A stretch of 29,783 nucleotides of DNA, from the IMG/VR virus record IMGVR_UViG_3300041016_000283, positions 1-29,783 of that record; one strand, 5' to 3'. The number at the start of each line of letters is the position of its first letter. Positions within the stretch are counted from its first letter, which is position 1. Origin of the DNA: a virus. Positions 23,461 through 25,273 of this stretch are shown in pieces. Under the pieces are notes generated by a model. It did not search any database, had not been told where the DNA came from, and saw nothing but the letters and a program-made list of their open reading frames with translations. Position numbers and translations under genes: made by a program.

Positions 23461-24172
23461 CTTCAAAGTATTTAACTATTGCTAATGCTTTACATTGCCT
23501 ATCAAAATAATTAGGGTTTTTAATCTGCTCTTTAAATTCCTTTGCTTCTACCGGTAGCATTTTTAAAATCCTTTGACTGTTATCTGCGTTTACTATTCTC
23601 ATTATTTTTTCACTCTGGGCTTTATCTATAATTAATTTACCTTGTTTTAATAAAATATCAAATACCCTATGAATATTAAATATTTTGTTAAAATCAGTTT
23701 TATAACTATTATTCCAATCATTACGAGTAAAGTCCACAATCTCATCCTCTGTTAATTTTGGCACAGGTAATTGATTTATAGGTTTTATTTGTTTCCTTAC
23801 ATCATTAGCTTTTGATTTATACGCATTCATTACTTGGCTTATAAACTTACCACTAAACTTTTCGTAGTGTTCCACATTACAATCTAACTTTCCCAATGTA
23901 GCTAATTTAAACGCAATACGAAACTCCTGTATTGTAAACATTGGATAGCTTGTACGAATAAAATCCTCAATAATAGAATACTCATCAGGATCTGGAAGCC
24001 TAGTTAATCCTATCAAAGTAAAAATATAAGCAAGATTTTGTTTTAAAATTACAGGGCTGACAAGGTTTAATTTATCGCCATTAAAACAAGATGCTATTTC
24101 ACTCTCCAACCCATTGCTTGAGATCTGACATTCTTTTTGTACTTGCTGCGGTAGCTGATTTTGTTGTTGCAT
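23444..24172 (-). CDS. Replication-associated protein, putative
   Basis: 242 residues. Helical, with SPVILKQNLAYIFTLIGLTR and FTIQEFRIAFKLATLGKLDC, then VEHYEKFSGKFISQVMNAYK. The last part is a long helix-rich tail (KMLPVEAKEFKEQIKNPNYF) ending FEDEKGN. It follows the DUF4373-type gene with an overlap of 74 bases in another frame, a position often held by helicase-loader or primosome proteins. I see no Walker motifs, so a loader or accessory role is a guess. Its C-terminal codons lie inside the 21-bp repeat copy B. Confidence 0.55.
   Translation of the reverse strand: MQQQNQLPQQVQKECQISSNGLESEIASCFNGDKLNLVSPVILKQNLAYIFTLIGLTRLPDPDEYSIIEDFIRTSYPMFTIQEFRIAFKLATLGKLDCNVEHYEKFSGKFISQVMNAYKSKANDVRKQIKPINQLPVPKLTEDEIVDFTRNDWNNSYKTDFNKIFNIHRVFDILLKQGKLIIDKAQSEKIMRIVNADNSQRILKMLPVEAKEFKEQIKNPNYFDRQCKALAIVKYFEDEKGN
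23458..23478. repeat. 21-bp direct repeat, copy B (cassette boundary)
   Basis: Exact second copy of 22718-22738. Here the repeat holds the codons VKYFED of the preceding replication-associated gene and, at its end, the ATG of the PAPS-reductase-like gene, so the sequence serves two genes at once. Confidence 0.85.
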
Positions 24173-24779
24173 ATTTATCTTTGTTTTTATTCCAAGTTAA
24201 TATCCTGCGTTCAAGATTAAAAAACTTTTCTAGTTCGTATCGTAATTTACCATTTTTATCTGATTCAGTCCAATACATTAAAAAATTTTCATATTCATTA
24301 TCTAATTCTAATTTGTAGGGAATAAGTTTATTTATAAACTGTTCTCTATAATCTATTATAGTTTCTTTTACTTTTATTTCCTTTTCTTTTCTTTTCTTTG
24401 CATTGCCCTCCCCAATAGCCCCCCCAATAGCCCCCCCATTTAGCCACCTATTATTTGCGCCTGTTTTACCGCTTTCGCTTAATTTCTGTCGTAATGCTAA
24501 ATGATTTTGTAATCGTTCTGAATGGAACTCCCCAGATTCAATAGTAAATAAATTAAAGTTCATTAATACTCCATTAACTTTTACATCTGTGCATTGCATT
24601 TGCATTGCTAATACAGGTATTAATTCAAGCGGTAATTTACCTCCGGCACTTGCTAACTGTTCAACTAAAAACCAATAGATCCCATAGCCTTCCATACCTA
24701 GCTGATGCCTTAAAAACAAAATTTTTGTATCATTAGCAGCGTTATAATCGTGGCTAAAATAATATGAATTACTTTTCAT
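24099..24779 (-). CDS. Replisome organiser-like protein (DUF4373 / Lin1244-type)
   Basis: 226 residues. The N-terminal 95 residues fit the DUF4373 domain: MKSNSYYFSHDYNAANDTKI, then QLGMEGYGIYWFLVEQLASA, and a LMNFNLFTIESGEFHSERL stretch. Members are winged-helix DNA-binding proteins found at phage replication origins. The linker at 113-126 carries two GGAI units encoded by exact 12-bp tandem repeats with G7 runs. The C-terminal part (LRYELEKFFNLERRILTWNK) is helical and may contact a helicase or loader. Its ATG is only 10 bases after the last G-C pair of a structured leader. Confidence 0.85.
   Translation of the reverse strand: MKSNSYYFSHDYNAANDTKILFLRHQLGMEGYGIYWFLVEQLASAGGKLPLELIPVLAMQMQCTDVKVNGVLMNFNLFTIESGEFHSERLQNHLALRQKLSESGKTGANNRWLNGGAIGGAIGEGNAKKRKEKEIKVKETIIDYREQFINKLIPYKLELDNEYENFLMYWTESDKNGKLRYELEKFFNLERRILTWNKNKDKYATTKSATAASTKRMSDLKQWVGE
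24414..24437 (-). repeat. Tandem 12-bp repeat inside the replication organiser
   Basis: On the minus strand two exact copies of GGGGGGGCTATT (24437-24426 and 24425-24414) encode Gly-Gly-Ala-Ile twice. Each contains a run of seven G residues, so slippage and length variation are likely. It lies in a flexible linker after the DNA-binding domain. Confidence 0.85.
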
Positions 24780-24783
24780 AAAT

Positions 24784-24869
24784 AAAAAAGCCCTCGGATT
24801 TGCAGGTAATTGCAGTACCTACGCCTCTTCGGGCAATGATTTTAAAAACAAAGGATTCTGCAATAACCC
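24784..24869 (-). ncRNA. Structured leader RNA: two hairpins with kissing loops and a kink-turn, ending in a U-tract
   Basis: On the minus strand hairpin 1 is GGGUU (24869-24865), loop AUUGCAG (24864-24858), AAUCC (24857-24853), with one G-U pair. Hairpin 2 spans 24834-24790: GCCC/GGGC basal stem, a GAA bulge, tandem G-A/A-G pairs, GG/CC, a C/AAAU internal loop, a 7-bp stem (GUAGGUA / UACCUGC) and loop CUGCAAU (24815-24809). The two 7-nt loops are perfect complements. The GAA bulge plus tandem GA pairs is a standard kink-turn. Six U residues (24789-24784) follow, then AUUU and the AUG at 24779. It may be an attenuator or ligand- or protein-controlled leader. No known class was recognised. Confidence 0.6.
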
Positions 24870-25273
24870 TATTTTGATACAAAGTTACTATATTTTCCAA
24901 TCTCATCTTGGATTATTTCTATCTTATTTCTGTACCAATCTTCTGTAACCATTAGATCTCCACATTTTTTGATTGAATATAAGACTGTGCTATGGTCTTG
25001 TACTCCAATCTCTAAAGCTATTTCTTTTAGTGATAGCCTTGTAAAGTTCTTTAAAATAAAAGCAGCAGCCTTTCTCCCGAATACAGTTGTTTGTTTCCTG
25101 TTTTGTAAACTAATATCACATTCAAATACATCCTCAACTAATGATACTAATTTTTTCGGTGTAATGTTAATTATCTTTTCATCAGTTATTAAATTGTTTT
25201 TCTTTAATATCTTTTTAAGAATTTTTAACTGCTCTGCACTATGCCGGTAGTATGCTACTATTTCGCTATTCAT
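24869..25273 (-). CDS. DnaA C-terminal (domain IV)-like DNA-binding protein
   Basis: 134 residues with no AAA+ part. Residues 60-115 (RKQTTVFGRKAAAFILKNFT, then LSLKEIALEIGVQDHSTVLY) carry the DnaA domain IV helix-turn-helix, with GVQDHSTVLYSIKK corresponding to the DHSTV signature that contacts the DnaA box. The N-terminal 55 residues are helical. Such single-domain proteins in phages may direct initiation or recruit the host DnaA. It is the last gene before the structured leader, whose first paired base is the G of this gene's TAG stop codon. Confidence 0.9.
   Translation of the reverse strand: MNSEIVAYYRHSAEQLKILKKILKKNNLITDEKIINITPKKLVSLVEDVFECDISLQNRKQTTVFGRKAAAFILKNFTRLSLKEIALEIGVQDHSTVLYSIKKCGDLMVTEDWYRNKIEIIQDEIGKYSNFVSK

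Follow-up and report, generated by a model that had tools for sequence, protein, structure and literature searches.

A leader RNA with predicted kissing hairpin loops before replication and homing-endonuclease genes of Bacteroidota phages

The window analysed here, a stretch of 29,783 nucleotides (positions 1 to 29,783 of the viral record IMGVR_UViG_3300041016_000283), carries a short leader between a DnaA-like gene and a replication initiation (rep) gene, and the question it raises is whether this leader is a structured RNA of a new kind and, if so, what it does to the gene that follows. The original prediction was a candidate new structured RNA, formed by two kissing hairpins and a kink-turn and resembling a switchable attenuator or a control of ribosome access. 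All genes around the leader lie on the minus strand (Table 1). Read from its 5' end, the RNA consists of a hairpin, P1 (AGGGUU and AAUCCU around the loop AUUGCAG), a 17-nt linker whose 3' end, just before P2, has the family consensus AAACUUAUU, and a long hairpin built of P2 (GCCC/GGGC), a 3x3 internal loop (GAA/CGA), P2b (GA/UC), a second 3x3 loop (GGC/AAA) and P3 (GUAGGUA/UACCUGC), closed by the loop CUGCAAU; six U, AUUU and the AUG follow. Over all 7 nt, the two loops, L1 and L3, complement each other exactly, and 4 nt separate the end of the U6 tract from the AUG; both points agree with what had been predicted, as does the location as a leader with a terminator-like end, P2, the U-tract and the AUG standing in that order. 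The 5' end of P1 overlaps the stop codon with which the upstream ORF ends.

Table 1. Features of the leader and of its neighbourhood in the window
Feature	Positions	Strand	Basis or remark
Controlled gene: Lin1244_N (PF14297) / phrog_2562 replication initiation protein	24099..24779	-	
Upstream gene: DnaA domain IV only (Bac_DnaA_C, PF08299), 134 aa	24869..25273	-	
Promoter-like -7 box TAACTTTG (TAnnTTTG type)	24880..24887	-	inside end of upstream DnaA_C gene; direct sequence
Leader RNA	reverse complement of 24870-24784	-	direct sequence
Hairpin P1	24852..24870	-	sequence, fold and pair changes across relatives
Loop L1 AUUGCAG, 5' half of kissing contact	24858..24864	-	exact complement of L3; columns 13-65, 11-67 above phylogenetic null
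Linker UUGUUUUUAAAAUCAUU, single-stranded, 17 nt	24835..24851	-	position-specific conservation
Long hairpin P2+P2b+P3	24790..24834	-	covariation above phylogenetic null; energy fold
Loop L3 CUGCAAU, 3' half of kissing contact	24809..24815	-	covariation; complementarity in relatives
U6 tract right after P2	24784..24789	-	U at +3 to +5 kept in family
AUG of controlled gene	24777..24779	-	P2 end to AUG 9-12 nt throughout family

When the RNA is folded from the inferred transcript start, the minimum-energy structure contains exactly the P1, P2, P2b and P3 helices. A descriptor asking for two hairpins with exactly complementary 7-nt loops, an outer GC stem, a T-rich tail and an ATG gives a single match in the window, whereas 100 dinucleotide shuffles of it give no match. 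The folding energy of the 86 nt is unremarkable (z -0.80) and not informative, so that comparison with relatives must decide, and the evidence is carried by the kissing loops and by conservation.

A search of IMG/VR with the Rep protein alone returned about 80 relatives; in almost every one, this leader stands immediately ahead of the AUG. The set was widened by further protein and pattern scans. Fifty distinct elements, chosen for complementary loops, were aligned with MAFFT (alignment A4). Over 26 pairs, seven kissing pairs included, 92.4% of the cells are paired and both sides change in 24 of the 26; the covariation score is 0.714, against 0.195 for shuffled alignments and at most 0.22 with slid partners, and RNAalifold recovered P1, P2 and P3 unaided. 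Because A4 had been selected for complementary loops, our claim rests on sets collected blind to the loops, namely leaders picked by their Rep protein, matches of a covariance model (R1) built from A4 with the loops treated as unpaired, and DNA pattern matches. R1 gave 103 matches in 100 loci, 77 of them distinct and full-length, and when hairpins were chosen by stem stability alone, 73 of these 77 had exactly complementary loops. Three of the four misses were errors of hairpin choice with the complement present, which brings the count to 76/77, and the fourth, L086, has no P1. That element (L086:1265-1356), on a contig binned as a Sphingomonadaceae MAG, keeps P2, P3 and the U-tract intact and is missing P1 and its loop, possibly through a natural deletion or as a binning or assembly artefact.

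The complementarity is kept by about 15 different loop pairs in the R1 set, with loop sequences that include GUUGCAG, AUUGCAG, GUAGGAU, GUCGGAU, GUCGCAU, GUCGUAU, GUACGAG, GUGAGAU, GUCAGAU and the 6-nt CCGUAC, among others; in L074 the pair GUCGCAU/AUGCGAC is swapped between the two hairpins. Loops drifting without compensation in related phages, which would have spoken against the contact, were looked for, and the loops were found to stay complementary, their changes being compensated. Against a phylogenetic null, for which 200 alignments were simulated on the inferred tree (GTR+G4; 95% family-wise limit), eight column pairs stand out, all inside the proposed structure and none outside it: 57-76, 58-75 and 60-73 in P3, 44-89 and 45-88 in P2, 51-82 in P2b, and 13-65 and 11-67 in the kissing contact. 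In P1, both sides change in all five counted pairs across relatives. The two loops thus show the mutually compensatory changes by which a kissing-loop RNA is recognised, and the comparison among relatives shows, at the level of sequence, an architecture in which P1 forms, its loop L1 pairs with that of P3, and P3 is stacked on the P2 stem, which is rich in GC and runs into the U-tract. Two other ideas were set aside: swapping 5' and 3' halves among pattern matches, when not limited to hairpin loops, proved too unspecific (53% vs 24% at >=7 nt), and an upstream mini-ORF in P1/L1, whose AUG or GUG would lie at the edge of the loop, is not conserved within class A.

The kink-turn fared differently. 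Its letters (GAA bulge, GA/GA and GG/CC) are present in the window RNA, which is the likeness to Kt-7, and the energy fold pairs them otherwise there, GA with UC. As a family feature we rejected it, since the full signature occurs in only 7 of the 50 aligned elements, all of them class A and close relatives of the window. Within class A, pair 52-83 passes from G-C to G-U to U-C, uncompensated, and the G-A partner of the kink-turn becomes C in L034 and L063. Column pairs 50-82 and 51-81 of A4 are both standard in 42/50 rows. The inner pair 51-82, one of the eight significant ones, covaries among A-U, C-G and G-C; it is A-U in the window, and because a kink-turn would need to break it, it counts against that fold. 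A kink-turn in the single window RNA is possible; what the family appears to conserve, judging from covariation, is another pairing that uses the same bases differently.

A second search used a DNA pattern that ignores the loops (ACTTATT, a gap, then TTTTATTTTATGAA) and also retrieved an independent, more distant class, the leaders of homing endonucleases (HNH, GIY-YIG), in which P1 is longer and the internal loops are different. Here 7/7 kissing pairs are kept in 11/11 sequences, with double changes at six of the seven. One 25.6-kb viral contig, G482, carries four copies (L495-L498) before four endonuclease-type genes (GIY-YIG- and HNH-like), each copy with its own, different kissing-loop pair. 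Other first genes after the leader encode a DNA methylase, HTH_36 proteins and NUMOD4 HNH proteins. The methylase gene (L015:4015-4990) is inserted between the leader and rep, and the spacing of the leader to the new first gene is exact; standing before the inserted methylase and not before rep, the leader is tied to whichever gene comes first in the unit. The predicted position upstream of the replication organiser is therefore true in the window, but too narrow for the family, which also precedes homing endonucleases and methylases.

The cultured Flavobacterium columnare phage FCV-3 has a divergent member before an HNH/NUMOD4 gene (KY951963.1 40367-40490; L504), with a TATATTTG box, the P1 loop AGUAGUGC, its complementary partner GCACUAC and a terminator of the form A6...U9. 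The annotated CDS start (40460) falls inside this leader, and the true start of the gene is likely the AUG after the U9 tract. By DNA similarity, Flavobacterium phages were reached only by the NUMOD4-class query; no similarity to named phages was found with the window region or with rep-class, endonuclease-class or other elements. Among 395 Bacteroidota genomes, strong matches occurred only in phage-type contigs of one Chitinophagaceae MAG, and besides these contigs we found only two weak, unconvincing matches, so that for this sample a place of the element in host chromosomes was rejected. The leader looks phage-borne.

Of 74 distinct elements, 72 have a TAnnTTTG box, at a distance of 15-32 nt upstream of loop 1. 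We take this box, from the known Bacteroidota consensus, to be a putative promoter, and with this spacing transcripts would begin at or near P1. The leader fills the gap from the box, or from the stop codon of the preceding gene, to the AUG. At the other end, U is found at +3 to +5 after P2 in 78/78 distinct elements, all with a T-run of at least four, and the run is anchored on P2, not on the AUG. The region before the AUG is rich in T (T 0.56, A 0.16), compared with T 0.28 and A 0.49 upstream of other ORFs in the same phages, and the distance of 9-12 nt from the end of P2 to the AUG is constant before unrelated genes. The co-directional ORF upstream ends with a stop codon located from -27 to +7 nt relative to P1, the commonest position being 11-15 nt ahead of it, although the upstream genes represent three or more families (DnaA_C, C5-methylase, HTH_39). 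The endonuclease cassettes are flanked by co-directional genes, with almost no gaps.

Two observations concern the neighbouring genes themselves. Proteins that consist of DnaA domain IV only, of about 134-146 residues, precede rep in several phages (L005:4474-4911, L016:4467-4904, and 24869-25273 in the window); they are possibly DnaA-box-binding decoys or origin proteins. Inside the rep gene of the window (24409-24446, minus strand), the mRNA reads G7-CTATT-G7-CTATT-G4-A-G3, a strong candidate for an RNA G-quadruplex; the G7-CTATT tract encodes a GAIGGAIGEGNAK repeat, which relatives also carry in varying copy number.

As to novelty, Rfam 15 gave no gathering-level match in the window, where the leader had only chance matches at E<=10; seven related loci gave nothing at E<=1, and eight distant loci gave a single sub-threshold L20_leader match, outside the element. 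A search of openly accessible papers found no description of such a leader. Taken with the covariation, this upholds the prediction of a new structured RNA with kissing loops, and we regard it as a new RNA family, a variant of the cis-acting leader RNA with an architecture unfamiliar to us. Loop-loop pairing is well known from the ColE1-type RNAI/RNAII system, in which the loops have 7 nt and all seven bases pair. Pairing there, however, joins the loops of two molecules, a sense and an antisense RNA, whereas a single RNA carries both loops here.

Our preferred reading, to which we give a probability of roughly 55%, is that the leader acts in cis and gates expression through conditional termination at the U-tract, through a block to ribosome entry, or through both. 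P1 would be made first, L3 would kiss L1 once P3 appears, and P2 would close as the polymerase reaches the U-tract; the kissing contact would shut the RNA into a ring and hold P2 closed at the critical moment. RNA polymerase might then terminate at the U-tract, and/or the 30S subunit might be denied the start site 9-12 nt after P2, with the outcome that DNA-acting proteins such as replication initiators, homing endonucleases and methylases would be kept low or timed. Termination as the main output falls a little short of an even chance in our estimation, and ribosome blocking as the main output is a weaker, tentative candidate. That the leader is regulated at all, with an opened and a closed state, is an assumption.

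Several findings bear on these two outputs. A GC-rich hairpin followed by a U-tract, the sequence form of an intrinsic terminator or attenuator, was found in all 78 elements. P2 has only 4-5 bp before the internal loop, against stems of at least 7 bp in ordinary terminators of the same phages, but the complete P2-P3 hairpin at least matches their stability (mean -17.6 vs -12.5 kcal/mol), which makes a conditional terminator assisted by kissing reasonable. Attenuators built on intrinsic terminators likewise have a GC-rich stem and a U-tract in a leader; here, in contrast, P2 is short, interrupted and tied by kissing to an upstream hairpin, the AUG follows 9-12 nt after P2, and no alternative antiterminator fold was found for the leader. 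Since the endonuclease cassettes are nested in co-directional genes, an unconditional terminator would silence the genes downstream. The structure also covers ground that the 30S subunit needs for binding, which makes a block to translation a real alternative to termination, or a partner of it. Work in F. johnsoniae found that the initiation of translation is favoured by A at -3, -6, -12 and -13 and tuned by mRNA structure, and that UUUU at -14 to -11 reduces reporter output by 60% (PMC6847099). By these preferences, the U-rich leader is expected to start translation poorly unless it is opened. A plausible trigger would be the ribosome finishing the upstream gene, which might disturb P1, and the closeness of the upstream stop codon to P1 suggests that a terminating ribosome could open it. 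The predicted switchable attenuator or ribosome-access control thus stands as far as a leader with a terminator-like end goes, but for the switching neither an alternative fold nor a ligand was identified. A further-reaching version is doubtful: a translation-sensing gate in which termination or access to the start would depend on a P1 hairpin opened by the ribosome that ends the preceding gene, as a portable module of replication initiators and mobile endonucleases, with copy-specific loop pairs within a genome, and as a new type of regulatory RNA that is widespread in phages.

It is somewhat unlikely, in our judgement, that the element acts on translation only, the kissed structure blocking or positioning the ribosome at the AUG and the U-tract being an unstructured spacer. 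The distance from P2 to the AUG kept before unrelated genes would fit, as would the cassettes within runs of co-directional genes, where termination is polar, and in T4 the expression of homing endonucleases is known to be restrained by hairpins that the RNA forms at the ribosome binding site (PMC2988022). The U-run, however, follows P2 rather than the AUG and resembles the terminator tails of the same phages, and a plain spacer could be A-rich, like other start sites. The leaders of T4-like phage endonucleases (I-TevI, segB, mobE, also seg43(25)) share with ours a structured RNA right before the start codon and the presumed purpose of delaying or limiting expression (PMC2988022). In those phages, plain hairpins hide a Shine-Dalgarno site and contain a late promoter, whereas here two kissing hairpins and a U-tract are found, in hosts without Shine-Dalgarno use, and replication genes share the element; no Shine-Dalgarno site was found before the AUG, where the U-tract lies.

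Antitermination of the HK022 put type, with a folded 5' RNA that stays on RNA polymerase so that later terminators are resisted, is very unlikely. Like putL and putR, the leader has a size of about 70-90 nt and would place two stem-loops at the 5' end of a transcript just after a phage promoter (PMC9378689); for put RNAs, which come from other phages and hosts, neither kissing loops nor a terminal U-tract are mentioned (PMC9378689), and our element ends in a terminator-like U-tract and is usually present in one copy per phage, often before single endonuclease genes. That the ring merely protects the mRNA from degradation, with no role in switching, is quite unlikely: the start of P1 near the inferred transcript start and the closed topology would suit such a 5' stability element, but the invariant U-tract and the fixed distance to the AUG would be left unexplained. 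A ligand-binding riboswitch or a self-cleaving ribozyme appears highly improbable. The element is compact, pseudoknotted and placed in a leader, and its linker AAACUUAUU is conserved, yet the internal loops differ freely between classes, which argues against a conserved pocket or core, and Rfam has no match; among unpaired positions only the linker and the U-tract are conserved, and no conserved ligand pocket was found in the family. Least probable of all is a protein operator or origin that acts as DNA, its inverted repeats bound by a replication protein. The element adjoins replication genes and its two loops would form an inverted repeat in DNA; against this stand 39 G-U pairs in P1, P2 and P3, compensatory changes in every stem, the occurrence before endonucleases and methylases, and loops that differ among copies within one genome. 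G-U pairs and covariation largely refute the DNA reading.

If the gating reading is right, the leader probably limits when replication and homing-endonuclease genes of Bacteroidota phages are expressed. In Bacteroidota, translation starts without Shine-Dalgarno sites, and to our knowledge few regulatory leaders have been described there, so that an RNA family with strong comparative proof is added to the phages of this phylum. The kissing contact is unusually testable, since simple changes in the two 7-nt loops would break the pairing and compensatory ones restore it, and the relative in cultured Flavobacterium phages offers a laboratory entry. The leader is shared by replication initiators and by homing endonucleases of the free-standing kind, which suggests a portable means of holding DNA-acting proteins in check, and it may also help in building gene-expression tools for Bacteroidota.
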